A stretch of 34,352 nt of DNA from positions 1 to 34,352 of the IMG/VR virus record IMGVR_UViG_3300025543_000099. One strand, written 5' to 3'. Each line of letters starts with the position of its first letter. Within the stretch, counting starts at the first letter, position 1. Positions 1 through 34,352 of this stretch are shown in pieces. This stretch comes from a virus. The position numbers and the translations under genes were made by a program. Under the pieces are notes generated by a model. That model saw only the letters and a program-made list of their open reading frames with translations. It was not told the origin of the DNA and did no database searches.

Positions 1-340
1 TCCCAGCGTTAGGGTTAAATTGAGGGTCTGTTAGTAGTTTATTTATGTGTTTAATTGCTTCATTTCTTTCATCCATATCACCTAAGTAATATTTTTTGGC
101 TCCTATTTTTACCATTAATGAAAATTCCTCGAAATAAATCATAAATGATGTTCCATTTAATAATCTAACTTCATAGGAAGGGGGAACAGTATTGGCTGCT
201 TTTAGAGTATCAACATATCTAATTAAAGGATTTAATTTTAAATCATCTTTTAAAGCCGATACTATTTCTGCTGGTGCAGGATATTTTTCCTCCATTAAAC
301 GAGAAACTTCTTTTTTAATATATTCTTTAAGTTGTTTCAT
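1..340 (-). CDS. Unknown phage protein, C-terminus cut by window edge
   Basis: Read from ATG at 340, the frame stays open for 113 codons to the window edge, so the gene is partial at its 3' end. Its ATG shares one base with the TAA of the upstream gene (TAATG junction), which supports both the start and translational coupling. The N-terminus [19 protein letters not shown] is a charged amphipathic helix of the type that begins several other proteins here. It is followed by an alpha/beta stretch with the segments YEVRLLNGTSFMIYFEEF and KKYYLGDMDERNEAIKHI. I do not recognise the family. Because it lies downstream of other phage proteins of unknown function, I infer a virion or assembly role, with low certainty. 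Confidence 0.75.
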   Translation of the reverse strand, partial: MKQLKEYIKKEVSRLMEEKYPAPAEIVSALKDDLKLNPLIRYVDTLKAANTVPPSYEVRLLNGTSFMIYFEEFSLMVKIGAKKYYLGDMDERNEAIKHINKLLTDPQFNPNAG

Positions 341-2154
341 TATTTTTTGGTTGCTTTAGAAATAGCTTTTCTTCTGTTGGCTAAATATTTATCTGTTTTG
401 TCTACTTTACCATCATTGTTGATGTCATCGTCTTCTTTTCCTACTGGATCTAATTTTTCGTCCATTACAGCATCTAGTTGAGCTAATTTTTCTTCTCCAT
501 CTAAATAGTGTTTAGCACCTACCAAATAATCTCTAGCTTTAATGATTTTCTTTTGCCACCAGTGTGGAAAATCTACTTCACCTTCCATATCATCGTACTT
601 GTCTACCATTTTAAATAATTCAGTAGCATACTTAGCTATTCTGTAAAGGTCAGATTTTAGCATGTGTGGTTCATCATCTTGGTGACCTATATCTAGATCT
701 TCGTCTATTCTTGTTACATTACCTTTTACTAAATAGTAAGTGCCTTTAGTAGGATGGGTAATTTTAGTATTTCTATCGACTTTTTTTTCTAATTCGGGAT
801 TTTTTATAATTCCTAAATCATTAACGTAAACATCTCCTGTTTGTGTGTTTTTAAGAGAAACTGCTTTTGGGACTTTTATGGTTTGTTGTTGTCCGTAATC
901 TCCTGTTTTTGATATAAGTACATTTAAATTGTTAGGATCGTTTTGAACTAATTTAGTTTTTAATCTGATAGCGTCATTTTTGCTGATTTTATCTTTAAGA
1001 ACTTGATACTCCCAACTATCCATGTCTGGATTTTGTTTTACAGCAGTATATAAAGGACTAGCAAGGCCTTGTTTTACCTTATTCATCCAATCATTTCTAA
1101 ACAATCCTTTAAATGATTCTCCTGATTTTCGATCACCATAAAATGATTCCCCAGTAGATTTTAGAGTTACTTTAACTAGTTTTCTATCTTGATCTGTATT
1201 TTCGTCTACTTTATCTACTAGTTCTACGTCTACACCTTTTTTAGCTAATTTTTCAGCTTCAGCAGCGTCGTCTGTTTTGACTGATCCATTTTGTTCTTTA
1301 ATATTATTTCTTAGATCATTCATAAACTTATTCATTGATATAGCTTGTTTTTGGTCTATATCTTTTAAATTTTCTGGAAACTCTATACCGTACATAGATT
1401 TAAATCTATTTTTCCAAAAATCAGGTGTACTAGAATTATTTACAGCGTTGAATACCTTTTCAAGTCTTTCAGGTTGAATTGCAAGTGTTTCTTCTTCTAT
1501 TGTTTCTTGCAATTGAGCCATTTTAGACTTTACAATATTTTTAAATTCATTTGCGGCTTCAGAACCAAAGTTACCATCAACAACTCTAAACATTTTTCGA
1601 TAATGTCTCATCATATCTTCAGCATATATTTTAGCATTTAATGATGGTGATTCGTTTTCATCTAAAGATTCAAATTGAGATGATTGTGTTCCTCCTTTTG
1701 GTGCTGTATAATCTTTTGCTAAATCATTAAACATTACCCACAAGTAAACATTACCATAAACACCCGCTGGAGATACATCTGTTATTTCGTAATCTTCTAT
1801 GTATGTTTTATATTGGGTATATGTTTTAAGTGCTGCTGCTTTTGCTTTTGCTTTTGATCTTTCTATTTGGTCTGTTGTTTCTCTACCAAATAATGCTCCT
1901 GGTCCAGGTCCATTATAATGTGGGAATTTAATAATTGTTCCGCCTGTTCTTTTATCTAGATATGAAGAGATTTCATCAGTATCTGCATCATCAACAAGTT
2001 CATCATGATACACATCAGCAGCATATAACATTTCTCTAACTAAACTAAGAGTGTCTGGATCAAATGTTTTGGGTGTTTTAAATTCTGTTAGATTTTCGCT
2101 TACTACCTCTTGGATAGCTTCTTGTACTAGTTTTATAATGTCTTGCTTTTTCAT
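340..2154 (-). CDS. Unknown 604-residue phage protein with C-terminal EF-hand/dockerin-like loop
   Basis: A long, hydrophilic, lysine- and aspartate-rich protein. The N-terminus [20 protein letters not shown] is an amphipathic helix like those of neighbouring proteins. Around residues 488-555 there is a compact segment beginning [19 protein letters not shown] and containing [10 protein letters not shown] believe this segment recurs in hypothetical proteins of marine T4-like phages, but that is recollection and was not searched. Residues 577-588 read [12 protein letters not shown], a textbook calcium-binding loop (D at 1, N at 3, D at 5, G at 6, hydrophobic at 8, D at 12), followed by a basic tail. 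No catalytic motif is visible. The start is preceded by A/T-rich sequence without a Shine-Dalgarno motif. A structural or capsid-associated role is possible but inferred only from context. Confidence 0.85.
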
Positions 2155-3898: not shown

Positions 3899-6800
3899 TT
3901 AAAAGTCTGAGGCCATTCCTCCTAATATAAATTTTCCAGTAATTTTAAAAGGAACTTTAGCTATGCTTTCATCCCTAATTACTACACCTTCGTGGTTTTC
4001 AACTGAACCCATAGGTGAATCTAATACTTTAAGTACTTCATCTCCTAATTTTTCAGTTGCAAGGTAAGTTACAAATCCATCTATAGCTTTTTTCTTGTCG
4101 GCTTCATTGTCAAATAAATCATCAACATTTTCGCCATTTAATATAGCAAGATAAACTTGTTTAGAAACAGCTCCAACTTTTTTTCTGTTAATAGTGCTGC
4201 TTCCTTCCTTGTATCCAACATTCATAAATATAAAATCATCTTTAGGAATAGAACTTACTGTATCTAACCATTGTGATAAGGATTTAGTTTCTGTTCCTTC
4301 ACTTGATTCAACACTGTAGTTTTTTGATAGTGCTGAGCTAAAATTTGGTTTTTTCTTCATTTCAGTTGGCACTGAACCATATACTTCAAAATTTCTTTTT
4401 TTAGCTATTGGTTTTAGATTATTTAAGAGTGATTGAAGTGCATTTTTATCATAAGATATTTCAGAAGAAGAACGTTTAACTAGTGGTCCTTTTTTACCTT
4501 GTACTTCTTCCATTTTGACTTTATTTAAACCATGAATAGCTATAAAGTTAGAGCCATAATCTTGTACGTTAGTTTTTCCACTAACATATTCCATATTGAA
4601 TAGTATGTTTGGATCATCCCAAGCACCTAATTTTTTAAGATCATTTTCAATTTTAGGTAAGGCTTCATTAAACATATCTAATACTTCTCCCCCTACTTTT
4701 ACCATTCCATGGCCTTTTCCAAATCTATCTAATAAATCATCTTTTGTAATACCTTTAATATCGAGTTCTTTTTTAGAACCTCTATCCATTACAAACTGTT
4801 TTTTACCATCTATATCTACTAATCTAATAGATGAGTTAACACCATCTATTTTTACAGAACCCGGGTTTTTATCTAATGAATTTGCTGCTTTTTCAAATGT
4901 TGTTTTTAAATCTCTACCTGTTTTTACATTTGGTAGATCGAAAGGATGAGCCATATGTCCTGCTGCTCCTCCTTCAGTTAATAACATTTCGTTGATGATT
5001 TCTTTCCACCAGTTTTTAGTAAATGTATCTTCTTTTCTCATACGTTGTGTTTTTTTCTTAGATGCTTCTTTACGTTTTTTAATATAATCAAAAGCTGTTC
5101 TTAAACGTTTTTTAACATCTGGATCTTTAGCTCTATTTAAAGCTGCTCTTACTCTTTGATGGATTAAATTTATTACTTGAGATTGACGAGCGTGAGATTT
5201 ACTTTTAAATGATTTTTTATTTAAAGTATCTACTATATCTTGCCTAGTTGAAAATTTAACACTTACTGTATCTGTGGGATCTTCGTCTGTATATAATCTT
5301 CTTCCTGATCCTTTTGGTTTTTTACCTGTACCTTTTTTAGGATCAGCTTCATTAATAGGTTCGTAAGCTGAGCCATAAGGGGCTGCTTTACCTTTATGTT
5401 TAGCTTGTGCTTTAGGATCTATGTTTTCTTTATTAGTTGTTGTTTTTAATGTTTTAGCTAAATTTAAGGCTTTAAGGTATTTTTTATTTTTTTCGCTCGG
5501 ATTATCCATTTTTTTAATCCGTGAGATTTCTTTGTTGATTAAAGATAAAGGAATTTTTTCTCCGTCTTTAATTTTAAGTCTTTTTCTTACAGTACCTTGT
5601 TTTAGATTACCTTTTTTCTTACCCTTAGCAGCCATTTTTTCATAAGTGTCACCTTCTAAATAACCTTTCTTTTTAGCGTCTTTAGGGCTGTTTGTAAAAG
5701 TATCACTTGCTTGGTATCTTACTTTTTGTACTTGGTCTGCTTTATATGGTGGATAATTTTCGTTCTTTTTAGCCATTTTAGTTGCTGTAGCTATCTTAAC
5801 TGATTTCCAATCTTTACCATAACGTTTTTTAAATTCTTTGTCTGGTAAACTTTGAGCTATTCTTTCCTCTTCAGCTGAAAGATCTCTTTCTAAGGATAGT
5901 TGGGGATTAGGTGTTTGGAAATCTTTTTTTCTTAAAATTGTTTTAGCTATTATCTTATCTGCTTGTTTTAAGAAAGGTATATTAAGGTTTGTTCTACTAT
6001 CCGATGCTACTATTTCTTTATATTTTGATAAGAAATCAAATAAATCTTTTTTCTTTTTAGCTAAACGTTTAAAAAACCCAATTAATTCAGCATTTGATAT
6101 TTCTTTATCATTACGGGGATCATTTAGTCTATTAAAAAAGTGATCTGAAGTTAAATCAACATCTACAGGATCTAATTGTTTGTCTGCGAAAGTATCTATA
6201 GCATCTAAATCTCCGGGGGATACTTTTTCATACATTTTTCTTGTTAAAGTACCTTTTAAATAATCAGGTACTTCCATGTATTGATCTCCTTGTTTAGCTG
6301 TGTCTTTTTTTAAGCGTTTAAGATTTTTAGCATGTTTTTTCTTTTCAGGTTCAGTCATCATGCCCATCATTAATTCTTCCATTTCCTGTTCTACTTCATA
6401 CATTCTGCCATATATGCCTCCTCTTTTATATTTGTAAGAAGGTTCAATGTCATCTTTGGGACCAGGATCGTTTGATTTTGCAAAATCATAAAACTTATTT
6501 CTTGGATCATAAAAGTCTTCATTTAAAGAAGAAACTAATTCCCATGCTCTGTCTTTTTGTTCGTCTGTTAGGAATTCAGGGATATATTTTTGAAATGATT
6601 CTTTATCGCCATTTTTAATAAACTCTCTCATTTTAGTACCTGATACTCCTCCTGCTTGGGGTGGTACTAAAGTTGTTTCGAATTTGATACCTCTTGGTTC
6701 TGCAAATTTATAGATATTTTTAAAACGAGCATCATTTATATCCTTTTCGCCCATTCCTAAATAAATTGTAGATTCACCAGGTGCTTCTTTTTCTACAAAA

Positions 6801-7057
6801 TCATATACATCTTGTACAGGAGAATTTGAATTTGAGGCTACTACTGTTATTTTTTGTGAATTTGAGTTAGGGTCATTTTTTAAGAAAAGATCCCATAATT
6901 GTAAAGATATTTCTCTTGTGATGCCATCTCTTTCTTTGGCTCCCACTTTTACTATTACGGTATCAGCGTCAGTATTTTCAGCTAACCATATAGCCATATT
7001 ATAATGACCAGCATGAGGTGGTTTAAATCCTCCAGGTAAAAGTGCGATTCTTTCCAT
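3899..7057 (-). CDS. Fusion of HxGH nucleotidyltransferase and ligase-type nucleotidyltransferase
   Basis: This 1052-residue protein carries two unrelated nucleotidyltransferase signatures. Residues 1-180 match the cytidylyltransferase/NMN-adenylyltransferase fold: GGFKPPHAGH with HxGH at 15-18, and GGVSGTKMREF at 136-146 in place of the family's ISSTxxR motif. Residues about 180-700 are lysine-rich and helical, with SGRRLYTDEDPTD and a histidine/arginine-rich helical segment. Residues 700-1052 carry ordered motifs of the covalent DNA/RNA ligase and capping-enzyme superfamily: KIDG at 736-739 (motif I, K736 the candidate nucleotide-accepting lysine), NMEYV at 821-825 (motif III-like), EGVVIR at 1023-1028 (motif IV) and FKITGKF near 1037-1043 (motif V-like). 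I recall similar uncharacterised proteins in marine phages. Substrates are unknown; NAD, nucleotide or RNA-end metabolism is conceivable. A candidate late promoter lies just upstream. Confidence 0.85.
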   Translation of the reverse strand: MERIALLPGGFKPPHAGHYNMAIWLAENTDADTVIVKVGAKERDGITREISLQLWDLFLKNDPNSNSQKITVVASNSNSPVQDVYDFVEKEAPGESTIYLGMGEKDINDARFKNIYKFAEPRGIKFETTLVPPQAGGVSGTKMREFIKNGDKESFQKYIPEFLTDEQKDRAWELVSSLNEDFYDPRNKFYDFAKSNDPGPKDDIEPSYKYKRGGIYGRMYEVEQEMEELMMGMMTEPEKKKHAKNLKRLKKDTAKQGDQYMEVPDYLKGTLTRKMYEKVSPGDLDAIDTFADKQLDPVDVDLTSDHFFNRLNDPRNDKEISNAELIGFFKRLAKKKKDLFDFLSKYKEIVASDSRTNLNIPFLKQADKIIAKTILRKKDFQTPNPQLSLERDLSAEEERIAQSLPDKEFKKRYGKDWKSVKIATATKMAKKNENYPPYKADQVQKVRYQASDTFTNSPKDAKKKGYLEGDTYEKMAAKGKKKGNLKQGTVRKRLKIKDGEKIPLSLINKEISRIKKMDNPSEKNKKYLKALNLAKTLKTTTNKENIDPKAQAKHKGKAAPYGSAYEPINEADPKKGTGKKPKGSGRRLYTDEDPTDTVSVKFSTRQDIVDTLNKKSFKSKSHARQSQVINLIHQRVRAALNRAKDPDVKKRLRTAFDYIKKRKEASKKKTQRMRKEDTFTKNWWKEIINEMLLTEGGAAGHMAHPFDLPNVKTGRDLKTTFEKAANSLDKNPGSVKIDGVNSSIRLVDIDGKKQFVMDRGSKKELDIKGITKDDLLDRFGKGHGMVKVGGEVLDMFNEALPKIENDLKKLGAWDDPNILFNMEYVSGKTNVQDYGSNFIAIHGLNKVKMEEVQGKKGPLVKRSSSEISYDKNALQSLLNNLKPIAKKRNFEVYGSVPTEMKKKPNFSSALSKNYSVESSEGTETKSLSQWLDTVSSIPKDDFIFMNVGYKEGSSTINRKKVGAVSKQVYLAILNGENVDDLFDNEADKKKAIDGFVTYLATEKLGDEVLKVLDSPMGSVENHEGVVIRDESIAKVPFKITGKFILGGMASDF

Positions 7058-8040: not shown

Positions 8041-8481
8041 CTAAACAAAATCTCTATCGAAAAACTTACCTAAAATATTGTCATTAAGCCATTCATTCGA
8101 TTCAATCACACCTAGCGTAAATTGATATTTACACTCCAAGTAAGTTAATTCTTTTTTATTATAGGCAATTTCTAATATCTCTCTTGAAAATTCATCTTCA
8201 CCACCTGTTTTTAACATTTCTTTTATAAAATGGTGGGAGCCATAATATGTTTTCCAATCGCTTTCTTTTTGTACTCTGGTATGTGTGGGGGTTCTTCCCT
8301 TCTTACCGGCGTACTCTAAAAGTTCTTTTTTAGTAAGTTTTTTCTTACGATTGTACATTAGTGATTTTTTACCAATGTATTTTTTACCTGTGATGTGGGT
8401 TGTTTTGTAGACAAAACCGTATGCGTTTTCAGGCAAATCAGCGATATCGTTGATTTCCTTTTCTTTATAAAACCATTTCAT
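8041..8481 (-). CDS. GIY-YIG family endonuclease
   Basis: A 146-residue protein with a variant GIY-YIG nuclease core: YGFVYKTT at 21-28 in place of GIY, GKKYIGKKS at 32-40 containing YIG, R100 in FSREIL as the conserved arginine, and E116 in YLECKYQ as the candidate metal-binding glutamate. It is short and has no obvious DNA-binding extension, so it may be a resolving or repair nuclease, or a reduced homing-type enzyme. It stands alone between the tail-fibre genes and the primase, a module boundary where free-standing phage nucleases often insert. An A/T motif resembling the candidate late promoter lies 9 bases before the start. Its exact role is not determined by the sequence. Confidence 0.8.
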   Translation of the reverse strand: MKWFYKEKEINDIADLPENAYGFVYKTTHITGKKYIGKKSLMYNRKKKLTKKELLEYAGKKGRTPTHTRVQKESDWKTYYGSHHFIKEMLKTGGEDEFSREILEIAYNKKELTYLECKYQFTLGVIESNEWLNDNILGKFFDRDFV

Positions 8482-21176: not shown

Positions 21177-21611
21177 TTATAGTCCTTTTTTCTTATTAAT
21201 TGCTTTCATTAAACCACTATAATCTCTTGTTACAGCATTAGCTACTGATTCAGGCATTCCTGTTGTATCCATGTGGGTAACCCCTCCTGTTGTAAAAGGT
21301 TGTGATAAACTTACGGGTGCTTGGGCTGTTTGGGTGTTTGTATTTCCCATAGCTGTTTCATTTAATAAATCATTTAAAGTATTATCACCTACAAAATTTT
21401 GTTTTTGCATAATAGGTTTTTTACCCATGATTTTTTCTTTTAAAGATGATTGTTGTGGAACTTCAACTTTTCTTTCAGTGTGTTCTACTATAGATGGTTT
21501 AAGTTCATCACGTAAGTCTTCTTTAAGTGATTTAATTTCTCTACGTAACGCATAATCGATTTCTTCTCTAACTACTTTTCTAATTAGATCTTCAAAAGTT
21601 TTTGCTTTCAT
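21177..21611 (-). CDS. Small helical phage protein of unknown function
   Basis: A 144-residue protein. The first 50 residues form a long charged helix (MKAKTFEDLIRKVVREEIDY, then ALRREIKSLKEDLRDE) of the amphipathic type shared by several proteins here. The rest is a Thr/Gln/Asn-rich, probably disordered region ending in a short helix and a basic tail (GLMKAINKKKGL). It immediately precedes the gp25-like gene. A copy of the candidate late-promoter motif lies 19 bases before the ATG, so it may be the first gene of the gp25-gp6 transcript. No family recognised; an assembly or chaperone role in baseplate formation is speculative. Confidence 0.75.
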   Translation of the reverse strand: MKAKTFEDLIRKVVREEIDYALRREIKSLKEDLRDELKPSIVEHTERKVEVPQQSSLKEKIMGKKPIMQKQNFVGDNTLNDLLNETAMGNTNTQTAQAPVSLSQPFTTGGVTHMDTTGMPESVANAVTRDYSGLMKAINKKKGL

Positions 21612-29117: not shown

Positions 29118-29492
29118 TTACTTAATAATGTTAGCTAACTTTTTAAATCTTTCTTGAAGATGTGTAACTTCAGCAGACACTTCTTCTTCGAGATCTTCGT
29201 CTTTAGCTTCTTCGATTTCTTCTGCTAATTCAGCATCTTCTTCTTCAGCTTCTTCAGCGTCCATGTCATCCATTTCTTCTTCAGCTTCTTCTTCAGCTTC
29301 TTCTTCGCCTTCGAATTTATCTTTTAACATGTTATAGATTTGCATAAGTACTTCATCTGAATCATCACCTGATTCTGCACCATCGGCGTCAACATCACCT
29401 GCATCCATATCTACATCTACGTCTACTTCTTCTTCGTTCATGTAAGCGTCAAGTTCTTCCTTGATCATCTCTTGTAATTCTTTTAAATTCAT
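29118..29492 (-). CDS. Highly acidic low-complexity protein, possible prohead-core-like
   Basis: A 124-residue protein made largely of Asp, Glu and Ala: the N-terminal helix MNLKELQEMIKEELDAYMNE, then DVDVDMDAGDVDADGAESGD, then runs of EEAEEEAEEE type, then a final amphipathic helix (VTHLQERFKKLANIIK). The coding strand shows GAA/GAG-rich near-repeats over this part. T4 has comparably small acidic prohead core proteins (gp67, gp68), so a scaffold or core role is possible, but no sequence homology is visible. The helix at the start belongs to the group of similar N-termini found in several neighbours. The start is preceded by an A-rich leader (AACCAAAAAAA). Confidence 0.75.
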   Translation of the reverse strand: MNLKELQEMIKEELDAYMNEEEVDVDVDMDAGDVDADGAESGDDSDEVLMQIYNMLKDKFEGEEEAEEEAEEEMDDMDAEEAEEEDAELAEEIEEAKDEDLEEEVSAEVTHLQERFKKLANIIK

Positions 29493-30672: not shown

Positions 30673-33600
30673 TTATTGTTTAATGATTTGTTTATTATAT
30701 CTTTTACTTTCATGTATAATTGATAAATTATATAACCCATTAGATAAATCAGATAAATCTAATCTATTAACATTTTCAGTTTTTATTAATAATTTACCCA
30801 TTAAATCATGTACTTCTATTTGAATATCTAATCTAGTGTCTATACTTAATACATTATGTGTTGGGTTTGGATAAACAGCAATTCCTAAAGCTGAAACATC
30901 AGGTATAGAAGTTGGCCATCCTAATTGACAATAGTCATACATTGATTGACATGTAGGATCCCAATCATTAGTACAACAATAATCATCTACATCAATTACC
31001 CAAGCATAACATTCATCATTTAACCAATATGGAACACCTGGTCCACCATAACAACCAGCATCATATAAACATGCTGTAGAATCTGTTACGTTTGCTGCTG
31101 GGTCATAATTGTAAGCTGAAACGTCAGTACAACCAGGAACTGCTGTTATACATGAATTATCATCAAAACAAGCAAATTCGTTATAATTAACTGCTAAAGG
31201 ATCAGTACAACCCGCAATTAAACAACAGCTATTGTCATTTGTGTTAGCTAAAGGATCGTAATTAAAAGCAGCTGCATCAGTACATCCATAAACAAATGGT
31301 ATACAAGATCCGTTATCTGTATTAGCTAGTGGGTTATAATTAAATTGAGTTGAATCAGTACACCCATAAATGAATGGCATGCAAGATCCATCATCTGTAT
31401 TTGCTAAAGGATCATAATTTAATGCTATTGGGTTTGTACAACCATATACCACATCTATACATGAACCATTATCAGTATTCGCACTTATACTGTAATTAAA
31501 CGCAGTACTATCAGTACACCCATAAATATATGGAATACAAGAGCCATTGTCAGTATTCGCATTTATATCATAATTAAATTGTGTAGGATCTGTACAGCCA
31601 TAAATAAAATCAACACAACTCCCATCATTAGTATTTGCTAAAGGATCAAAATTAAATGCATCAACATCAGTACAACCAAGCACAGGATATATACATCCAT
31701 TGTTTGTATTTGCAAGTACATTATAGTTAAGTGCTGTTGCGTCTGTACACCCAATTACTACATCAACACAACTACCATCGTCTGTATTTGCGTTTATATC
31801 ATAATTGAATGCTGATGGGTCTGTACAACCCAAGATTGGATAAATACACCCAACATTAGTATTAGCTGATTCACTAAAGTTTAAAGCTGTTGGATCTGTA
31901 CATCCTAAAACAACATCTACACATGAACCATCATCTGTATTAGCATTAATATCATAGTTAAAAGCATCAGGATTAGTACAACCTAAGATTGGATAAATAC
32001 ATCCTGAATTTGTGTTTGCTAATTCTTCATAATTAAGAGCAGTTGGGTCAGTACAACCAATCACAACAGCTACACAAGAATTATCATCTACGTTTGCATT
32101 TGGATCATAATTAAATGCATTTGGATCTGTACATCCTAATAATGGGTAAATACAACCTACATTAGTGTTGGCTTCTTCTAAATAATTTAATGCTGTTGGA
32201 TCTGTACATCCTAGTACAACATCTACACAAGTTCCATCATCAACATTCGCATTAATGTCAAAGTTAAAGGCATCTGGATTTGTACACCCTAATACTGGAT
32301 AAACACATCCAATATTAACATTTGCTAATTCGCTAAAATTTAATGCAGTTGGATCAGTACATCCTAATACTTCAGGTATACAAGATTCATCATCTGTGTT
32401 TGCATTTACATTATAATTAAATGCTGATGGGTCTGTACAACCTAAAACAACTGGTATGCAATTACCTATATCAGTATTAGCATTAACATCAAAATTAAAT
32501 GCATTAACATCTGTACACCCATAAACAAAAGGAATACATGAACCATCGTCTGTGTTAGCTGCTGGGTTAAAATTAAATTTACCATCATCCATACATCCTA
32601 AAATCACTGGGATACAAGACGCTTCATCATTTACGTTTGCTTCTTCGTTATAATTGAATGCTTCTTCATCTGTACAACCTATAATTTCGGGAACACATGA
32701 ATCATCATCAGTATTAGCTTCGGGATTATAGTTAAAAGCCAATTCGTTTGTACAACCTAATATTTTAGGGATACAATTACTTTCTGTATTAGCTTCAGGA
32801 TTATAATTAAATGCTGTTGGGTCTGTACAACCAACCACAGCAGGTATACAATAATCACCACAATAAGGTATAGAGGAATAAGTTTCCCAAAATGGTGATT
32901 CAAATGATTGTAATGCACCTTGACCATTATCAGCAAAAGGGTTAGTACCTTCATGTAATAATACAACACCATCAGCGTTTGTTAGTTTAAATGAATTGTG
33001 CCATGTTTGGAATTGTACCTCTTCTGGCGGTTGCTGTGGCCCACCAACTTCAAAATAATATACATTAACTGGTATACCAGCGTCTAATACTAATAAAAAT
33101 GAATCTTGATAACTACCAGGACCCATTGTAAATGTTCCAAAATTAACTCCATTTTGATAAACACCAATATAAGAATTACCCCAACCATCACCACCAGCGT
33201 CTCCAATCCATAATTGATACTGGCAATCAGGAACTATATCGTTTATAGATGCATCTGGATCGTAGTTAAAAGCACTAGGATCAGTACACCCATATATATG
33301 TAAGTCTGTACAACTTCCGTCATCATCTGTAGCTAAAGGATTAAACTGTTGATAATCATCATCAGTACAACCAAGCACTGATTCAGCTAATTCACATTCT
33401 ATACCAAATTGTGTTCCTGAATATAATACATCCCCAAATCCTGGATTATCCATATTCCAAATAGTGTCTCCTTCGCAGTCATATATGGTAATCATTCCAT
33501 CCATTGAACCACCAGAGGTAGAACCTGCTAAACCATCACCATAAGTATCGTTAACAATTAACTCAAAACCTGCTTCTTGGTCTACACAAAAAGTATAAGT

Positions 33601-34352
33601 ATATGTTTGACCTATATCGTTAAAATTATATGTTCCTGGAAGTTCTTCTTGTATTATACCTAATTCACCACTTGTAAGAGACCAACTAGTTTCATTAGGC
33701 CAATTATCAAATGTAATATCCATTGTGATTTGATAAGTAGTAGCTTGATCACAATTTGTTCCTGAACATGAACCATCATCAAAAGTAGCCCATGGGTTAA
33801 ATGTAGGTTGTGTTGGATCAGTACAACCTGCTATACAAGATGAAGGAATGTAAGTTATAGTATCCGAAAAAGAACCATCAACAAATTCAACCCAACCATA
33901 ATGCTCTACTGACCAATTTGGGGGCATTTGACCATTACCTGCAAATACTGCAAAATCTTGTGCATTAGGATTTAACATGTATTGTGAAGGGTTTGGATTG
34001 CTTTCGTTTGAGTACCAGAATTTAAATGGTTCACAGTTACCATTATTTTGGTCGAGTGACCAGAAAAATTGAACTAAAGTTTGTCCATTTGGTAAACATG
34101 TTTGATCTGCGGTAAATGTATCAAGACCATCACATGCTGGGTATTCACATAACTCGTTATTATTAATATATGCTAATGAATCATAATTTAAAGCATAAAT
34201 ATCGGTACATCCTTCTGTGGGTGGTGCACATGGTGCAATATAAAGTGTATCTACATATAAATCACCAAAATCACCAGCAACATACAGTAGTGTATCTTGA
34301 CATGCGTTTTTAACTAAAAACCACCCATCAACTCCCGAATTTGCCCATTGAG
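30673..34352 (-). CDS. Giant cysteine-repeat protein with T9SS C-terminal sorting domain, 5' end outside window
   Basis: The frame is open to the right edge (1225 residues visible; the ATG at 33978 is internal, since the frame continues upstream with matching repeats such as EGCTDIYALNYDSLAY). About 27 copies of a unit of the form GCTDPxAFNYDPxANTDDGSC, each with two cysteines, fill most of it. Two inserted domains with DxYGDGL or GDGWG loops (near 33180-33215 and 33525-33545) look calcium-binding. A Cys-rich segment near 30945-31055 (DDYCCTNDWDPTCQSMYDYC) follows. The last 68 residues, from AVYPNPTHNVLSID to SNGLYNLSIIHES and KQIIKQ, are a type A T9SS sorting domain, used by Bacteroidota to export proteins to the cell surface. 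Such repeats and sorting domains are typical of flavobacterial secreted proteins. In a phage it may be a surface-exported adhesin or a captured host gene. The signal peptide is not in view. Confidence 0.88.
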   Translation of the reverse strand, partial: QWANSGVDGWFLVKNACQDTLLYVAGDFGDLYVDTLYIAPCAPPTEGCTDIYALNYDSLAYINNNELCEYPACDGLDTFTADQTCLPNGQTLVQFFWSLDQNNGNCEPFKFWYSNESNPNPSQYMLNPNAQDFAVFAGNGQMPPNWSVEHYGWVEFVDGSFSDTITYIPSSCIAGCTDPTQPTFNPWATFDDGSCSGTNCDQATTYQITMDITFDNWPNETSWSLTSGELGIIQEELPGTYNFNDIGQTYTYTFCVDQEAGFELIVNDTYGDGLAGSTSGGSMDGMITIYDCEGDTIWNMDNPGFGDVLYSGTQFGIECELAESVLGCTDDDYQQFNPLATDDDGSCTDLHIYGCTDPSAFNYDPDASINDIVPDCQYQLWIGDAGGDGWGNSYIGVYQNGVNFGTFTMGPGSYQDSFLLVLDAGIPVNVYYFEVGGPQQPPEEVQFQTWHNSFKLTNADGVVLLHEGTNPFADNGQGALQSFESPFWETYSSIPYCGDYCIPAVVGCTDPTAFNYNPEANTESNCIPKILGCTNELAFNYNPEANTDDDSCVPEIIGCTDEEAFNYNEEANVNDEASCIPVILGCMDDGKFNFNPAANTDDGSCIPFVYGCTDVNAFNFDVNANTDIGNCIPVVLGCTDPSAFNYNVNANTDDESCIPEVLGCTDPTALNFSELANVNIGCVYPVLGCTNPDAFNFDINANVDDGTCVDVVLGCTDPTALNYLEEANTNVGCIYPLLGCTDPNAFNYDPNANVDDNSCVAVVIGCTDPTALNYEELANTNSGCIYPILGCTNPDAFNYDINANTDDGSCVDVVLGCTDPTALNFSESANTNVGCIYPILGCTDPSAFNYDINANTDDGSCVDVVIGCTDATALNYNVLANTNNGCIYPVLGCTDVDAFNFDPLANTNDGSCVDFIYGCTDPTQFNYDINANTDNGSCIPYIYGCTDSTAFNYSISANTDNGSCIDVVYGCTNPIALNYDPLANTDDGSCMPFIYGCTDSTQFNYNPLANTDNGSCIPFVYGCTDAAAFNYDPLANTNDNSCCLIAGCTDPLAVNYNEFACFDDNSCITAVPGCTDVSAYNYDPAANVTDSTACLYDAGCYGGPGVPYWLNDECYAWVIDVDDYCCTNDWDPTCQSMYDYCQLGWPTSIPDVSALGIAVYPNPTHNVLSIDTRLDIQIEVHDLMGKLLIKTENVNRLDLSDLSNGLYNLSIIHESKRYNKQIIKQ
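31069..32832 (-). repeat. Coding tandem repeat array, about 23 cysteine-rich units
   Basis: This is the dense part of the repeats in the giant protein: about 23 units of 24-27 codons (roughly 75-80 bases) each with the pattern G-C-T-D/N-x-x-A-x-N-Y/F-x-x-x-A-N-x-D/N-x-x-S-C. Between about 31600 and 32365 units alternate between an AFNYD...DDGSCVDVVL type and a TALNY...NVGCIYPVL type, giving a superimposed period of about 153 bases. The repeats are translated and degenerate at the DNA level, so this is a protein-level repeat and not a CRISPR or origin iteron array. Confidence 0.9.

Follow-up and report, generated by a model that had tools for sequence, protein, structure and literature searches.

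The window (the whole 34,352-nucleotide stretch of viral DNA analysed here) encodes, on its minus strand and read from 7057 to 3899, a multidomain, probably head-delivered phage effector with a previously unrecognized, predicted ligase-like family at its core. A nucleotidyltransferase (NTase) of the HxGH type (hereafter, the N-domain) stands at one end, and a domain resembling the covalent nucleotidyltransferases of the ligase fold (hereafter, the C-domain) at the other (Table 1). The motifs that the original prediction had quoted for this ORF were all verified at the residue positions claimed. Its description of the protein as a fusion of two domains held in that both lie within one phage ORF, but the junction is not direct, as ~500 residues of exchangeable modules separate them. 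The fold assignments and the pairing are well supported computationally, and head packaging of the family moderately so.

Table 1 Features of the two-domain ORF, with positions in the window.
Feature	Residues	Window position	Strand	Basis or remark
Whole ORF		3899..7057	(-)	1052 aa, ATG start, stop included
N-domain, HxGH nucleotidyltransferase	1-180	6518..7057	(-)	PF01467 match, profile to PPAT structures, alignment of relatives
SLNE, possible prohead-protease site closing the N-domain	177-180	6518..6529	(-)	putative; [ILV]xE in relatives
M module	279-393	5879..6223	(-)	stand-alone phage homologues; weak RegB similarity
Module around GDTYEKMAAKG	464-545	5423..5668	(-)	common to L045 and other relatives
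Module KGTGKKPKGSGRRLYTDE, INE before it	571-680	5018..5347	(-)	comparison of relatives
MLLTE, [I/L]xE joint ahead of the C-domain	691-695	4973..4987	(-)	[IL]xE before GG[AT][AG]GHM in relatives
C-domain, ligase-fold covalent nucleotidyltransferase-like	696-1052	3902..4972	(-)	predicted model and conservation
Motif I KIDG (K736)	736-739	4841..4852	(-)	75/75 relatives
Motif III NMEYV	821-825	4583..4597	(-)	E in 75/75 relatives
Motif IV EGVVIR	1023-1028	3974..3991	(-)	EG in all relatives
Motif V FKITGKF	1037-1043	3929..3949	(-)	K.TG in 75/75 relatives

In the N-domain, PHAGH occupies residues 14–18 and SGTKMR residues 139–144. The domain matched PF01467 with an E-value of 9e-4, just under the curated cut-off, and a profile built from relatives matched the solved structures of phosphopantetheine adenylyltransferase (PPAT; E 1.5e-6) and, more weakly, those of NMNAT. 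These matches back the cytidylyltransferase/NMNAT-type fold that had been proposed for residues 1–180, and by motif and profile alike the N-domain is assigned to the HxGH nucleotidyltransferase superfamily (PF01467), with an active site that looks intact from its residues. Two forms of the active-site motif were found among 164 distinct fusions, HxGH (~85) and GxHH (~66); in the latter, which replaces HxGH in ~40% of the distinct fusions, the first His is gone and a new His stands two residues further on. Phage NadM/NatV (NTase plus Nudix) and NadR (NTase plus kinase) likewise place an NTase of the HIGH superfamily in a multidomain phage protein (PMC9503650), but in the window protein the partner is a ligase-fold domain instead of a Nudix or kinase domain, and they differ from the family also in its frequent GxHH form.

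The C-domain (residues 696–1052) matched no Pfam, PHROG or NCBIfam model, and searches of Pfam, NCBIfam, PHROGs and PDB sequences (phmmer/hmmsearch) gave no significant homology to ligases; hhalign comparisons with T4 Rnl1 and T4 Rnl2 were also not significant and did not place the domain within either profile. Nonetheless, its motifs are strictly kept: K736, D738, G739, the Glu of motif III and the K.TG of motif V do not vary in any of the 75 aligned relatives. Three of these are divergent, and the alignment takes in the divergent protein of Microcystis phage Mel-JY01 and two huge-phage genomes. By inspection, the EG of motif IV is present in all aligned relatives, the three exceptions in the column count being a misplacement caused by an insertion. 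On these ordered motifs, the C-domain is assigned to the covalent nucleotidyltransferase (ligase/capping) superfamily. An AlphaFold model built from 19 relatives (m9c070f289cc6; mean pLDDT 84) aligned best with RNA ligases in VIA-align, led by T4 RNA ligase 1 (Z 8.4, 4.2 Å over 182 residues) and Naegleria RNA ligase, with RNA editing ligase 1, fungal tRNA ligase, T4 Rnl2 and DNA ligases in lower rows and no capping enzyme among the best 50. Foldseek against the PDB also returned ligases on top, T4 Rnl2 first, with an E-value of only 0.06, which is not significant. Given this E-value and the lack of detectable sequence homology to the T4 ligases, we consider the ligase nucleotidyltransferase fold predicted here to be well supported but not proven; it rests on a middling Z-score together with motif order. 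The ligase/capping-type motifs of the original prediction have thus withstood both a fold prediction, which came out ligase-like, and a survey of homologues, which keep the motif residues. The C-domain resembles T4 RNA ligase 1, T4 Rnl2 and Naegleria RNA ligase in carrying motifs I, III, IV and V in order and in giving its best predicted-fold alignments with them; it differs in sequence, in the long, mostly helical insert between motifs III and IV, and in its fusion to an HxGH domain. Sequences of this type are already on record: one BFVD entry, with 79% identity to the C-domain, is named 'Cytidyltransferase-like domain-containing protein', leaving the ligase-like half without a name.

The pairing is not peculiar to one phage. 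The HxGH NTase and the C-domain share one ORF in 72 of the 77 distinct, 5'-complete relatives from IMG/VR, always with the NTase first, and in 44/45 members of a divergent subtype, whose profile joins the C-domain family by hhalign (E 3e-12); stand-alone C-domains also exist among the relatives. Protein WWT39297.1 of the cultured Microcystis phage Mel-JY01 (639 aa) is a distant member that has both domains. Hhalign connects it to the family at E 4e-10 across the C-domain; GIHH replaces HxGH, and the annotation is only cytidylyltransferase-like. As the original prediction had supposed, no characterised enzyme with this domain pair emerged from Pfam, NCBIfam, PHROGs, PDB sequences or the searched literature. 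An assembly artefact was rejected as the source of the architecture, which recurs in dozens of contigs and in Mel-JY01. A bacterial origin was not supported: 84,980 prokaryote species genomes contained no window-type relative, and one weak partial match to the divergent subtype. The family of the window protein is large and apparently phage-only. Weak matches to a betacoronavirus SUD domain and to Csx1 HEPN were judged to be due to chance.

Only the two ends of the chain are constant, and the modules between them come and go even between close relatives. Linker length ranges from nearly nothing to about 1000 residues, the smallest versions of the protein (609 and 553 aa) having almost no linker. 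Recognised passengers include DUF192, SET, a zeta/AAA_33 kinase, cupredoxin, a zinc protease and an M78-like protease, and some linkers contain HNH-type endonuclease insertions. In Flavobacterium phage immuto and in Methylophilales phage Melnitz, the M module of the window protein forms a protein of its own. The similarity of this module to RegB is weak (PF10715 E 0.003 in relative L004, below the cut-off), and hhalign to T4 RegB (E 0.19) did not confirm RegB identity. An HNH-type endonuclease sits in the linker right at LLTEGGAA in several relatives (L026:4570-7041, L281, L269 and L274), and in relatives with remnants of this insert or none, a Cys replaces the Glu (LTCGG, LVCGG), perhaps as a scar of HNH insertion. 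Modules resembling Pol-beta-type nucleotidyltransferases were also observed in L008 and L341.

In L045 and many other relatives, the C-terminal slot behind the same N-domain is filled by DUF6267 (PF19782), a Pfam family of unknown function that is present in 464 phage records, mostly from cyanophages. DUF6267 shows comparable motif residues of its own (KxDG, GTKS, QGD, EGxV and KLVDR), and its model aligned best with RNA ligases in VIA-align (Naegleria RNA ligase, Z 8.6; T4 Rnl1, Z 8.0), on which the ligase-like case rests, Foldseek of this model being not significant. The window-type C-domain and DUF6267 were colinear at motif I in hhalign at a non-significant E-value of 0.03, and DUF6267, ligase-like on its model, is regarded as a family distinct from the window type. 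In the cyanophages P-HM2, S-PRM1 and S-RIM32, a gene annotated as 'cytitidyltransferase' overlaps at its start with the DUF6267 gene; this is the same kind of pair as in the window protein but with a different ligase-like family and usually as separate genes. Unfused DUF6267 in IMG/VR has the NTase gene downstream on the same strand in 32/32 loci with an NTase in the examined stretch, and 42 further loci had no NTase gene in that stretch. PHROG 455 holds both NTase and DUF6267, in reverse order. No description of DUF6267 or of the enzyme pair was found in the literature searched.

The joints between domains resemble the cleavage sites of T4-type prohead proteases. In T4, the site has the form [I/L]xE, with which the N-terminus of IPII/IPIII taken from the genome (MKTYQEFIAE|A) agrees. 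According to PMC9026906, T4 gp21 cleaves proteins of the head after a short glutamate-terminated motif, and the internal proteins of T4 have a capsid-targeting sequence at the N-terminus. Of 12 records searched, among them relatives, 9 have a T4-type prohead protease (S77); it is absent from the 34 kb window fragment. Among distinct fusions, [IL]xE with a free middle residue lies directly ahead of the C-domain GG[AT][AG]GHM in 69/71 and [ILV]xE near the NTase end in 90/103; [IL][NT]E occurs in linkers about four times as often as in shuffles (226 vs 59); [ILV]xE falls within residues 5–20 in 43/45 divergent fusions vs 122/467; and a targeting-like N-terminus is present in 44/77 stand-alone DUF6267 proteins vs 199/1684 other ORFs of the same loci, all of these statistics being inflated by relatedness and by the choice of patterns after inspection. 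Many relatives have an N-terminal targeting-like peptide ending in [I/L]xE; the window protein, which starts MERIALLPGG, has none, and we therefore infer its packaging from its relatives and from its joints. The likeness to the T4 internal head proteins IPI-III and Alt thus lies in the targeting-like N-terminus of many relatives, the [I/L]xE joints and the S77 protease of most records searched, whereas the window protein differs from them in lacking such a peptide and in being a chain of several modules, from a family whose packaging is deduced. A similar helix with many charged residues (MxKxxLxxLIxxxIxE) begins the window proteins at 2156-2407, 340-2154, 21177-21611 and 29118-29492 (all minus strand), which may, judging by these residues, share a targeting signal.

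NMNAT-like proteins have been detected in purified virions of S-CREM2 (PMC10665884) and S-SCSM1 (PMC9602691), a detection that could be carry-over according to the authors of both papers. Both of these proteins begin with a targeting-like peptide, as T4 IPII/IPIII do. The DUF6267 protein has no such peptide in either phage and is not among the virion proteins reported for them, which fits the N-terminal peptide being the packaging determinant; the ligase partner is not packaged in every phage. S-CREM2 ORF156 (L264:7013-7726), which is listed in the published virion table, has the look of a Pol-beta-type nucleotidyltransferase (PF01909, E 3e-4).

With respect to domain composition, the window family joins at least two mutually unrelated activities in a single phage polypeptide and is probably head-delivered, as with polyvalent proteins (PMC5512222), which combine several unrelated enzyme domains. 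Text searches of that paper showed no HxGH-ligase pair, and the Pfam matches of the window family include no ArdC, MuF or ART domain.

Other genes of the window were also inspected. The 1101-aa protein at 30673-33978 (minus strand) combines numerous GCTDPxAxNYNPxAN repeats with a sorting domain of type IX secretion at its C-terminus (PF18962, E 6.8e-11), which is unusual for a phage gene and points to a Bacteroidota host. The gene at 8041-8481 (minus strand) encodes a GIY-YIG endonuclease of the SegE type (PF19835, E 1.6e-25); the matching PHROG 447 is named 'NAD synthetase', which looks like a misnomer. At the C-terminal end of the protein at 340-2154 (minus strand), an EF-hand-like peptide resembles one in PHM2_164 of cyanophage P-HM2 and is matched in several PHROG families.

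We tentatively favor a reading in which the window protein is head-packaged, protease-released cargo whose ends serve NAD/nucleotide metabolism and RNA-end sealing, although the proposal as a whole is plausible rather than probable. As the sequences show, the two enzymes are produced as one chain or from neighboring genes. In the manner of the T4 internal proteins, the chain would enter the prohead, in many relatives with a capsid-targeting peptide of the T4 type as its guide; the phage S77 prohead protease would cut the [I/L]xE joints and free the modules inside the head, and these would be injected along with the DNA. Least certain are the activities: the N-domain would make a dinucleotide, most likely NAD+ from NMN and ATP, and the C-domain would charge Lys736 with AMP and then seal or adenylate nucleic-acid ends, the likeliest target being RNA broken by host defence RNases. 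Against this reading, the structure search placed PPAT rather than NMNAT nearest to the N-domain, and no kinase or phosphatase partner that could heal ends is constant in the family; the missing targeting peptide of the window protein and the absence of DUF6267 from the reported virion proteins of S-CREM2 and S-SCSM1 also speak against it. NAD-type synthesis and RNA-end sealing are both known needs for phages that face NADase and anticodon-nuclease defences; defences that deplete NAD or cut RNA, and the phage answers to them, have been reviewed (PMC9503650, PMC7824862), and the common purpose of the two ends may be to reverse NAD+ loss and RNA cleavage by the host at the very start of infection. 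It is a more doubtful extension that aquatic T4-like and huge phages carry a protease-released kit in their heads, with an NAD-type NTase and a new RNA-sealing family (the window type plus DUF6267) as its constant parts, that is ready-made and injected to restore NAD+ and mend RNA before phage gene expression.

The chain may instead be cargo without functional coupling, a set of unrelated host-takeover enzymes whose fusion secures co-packaging and equal dose. This is rather unlikely: the passengers between the ends (DUF192, SET, zeta/AAA_33, cupredoxin, proteases) are indeed unrelated in kind, the joints carry [I/L]xE sites and C-domains are also found alone, yet the two ends are constant while everything between them is exchanged, and the pair recurs with another ligase-like family, in reverse order and as neighboring genes. 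The constancy of the pairing across distant phages, with both active sites apparently intact, is also what would be expected of one bifunctional enzyme, in which NAD+ or an activated nucleotide made by the N-domain is used by the C-domain to cap or ligate nucleic acid. However, a linker that varies from almost absent to about 1000 residues and contains protease-like sites fits such an enzyme poorly, as does the occurrence of both domains as separate genes, and we regard it as improbable. With joints that resemble T4 prohead-protease sites and with separate genes known for each domain, the single bifunctional enzyme is weaker than the original prediction implied; the two ends are no less likely to be delivered together or to serve one pathway. 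A chemical link between the two active sites through NAD capping, nucleotide activation or tRNA repair would be conjectural.

Both of these alternatives, like the cargo reading that we favor, concern how the two ends work together; others concern the C-domain itself. It is unlikely to be a covalent nucleotidyltransferase other than a ligase, such as an enzyme that caps RNA or transfers AMP to proteins or to RNA ends. Capping enzymes do have motifs I, III, IV and V, a long insert lies here between motifs III and IV, and no known RNA-binding extension was recognised, but the best structural rows are RNA ligases followed by DNA ligases, and capping enzymes do not appear in the best 50. That the motif match is coincidental and the C-domain not a nucleotidyltransferase at all is very improbable. 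The absence of a significant sequence match to any known ligase and the Foldseek E-value of 0.06 would agree with coincidence, whereas the ordered motifs are invariant in 75/75 relatives and, in two families modelled independently of each other, the top structural rows are almost all ligases.

The occurrence of an NTase and a ligase-like domain in one chain with cut sites at the joints suggests tools that are carried in the head for the start of infection. DUF6267, with its 464 mostly cyanophage records, thereby gains a testable function, and so does an unannotated C-domain that has hundreds of relatives in viral metagenomes. Both are linked to the unexplained NMNAT-like proteins of cyanophage virion proteomics. 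If packaged, these proteins would give common aquatic phages a set of nucleotide and RNA enzymes for injection, with a role comparable to that of T4 Alt.
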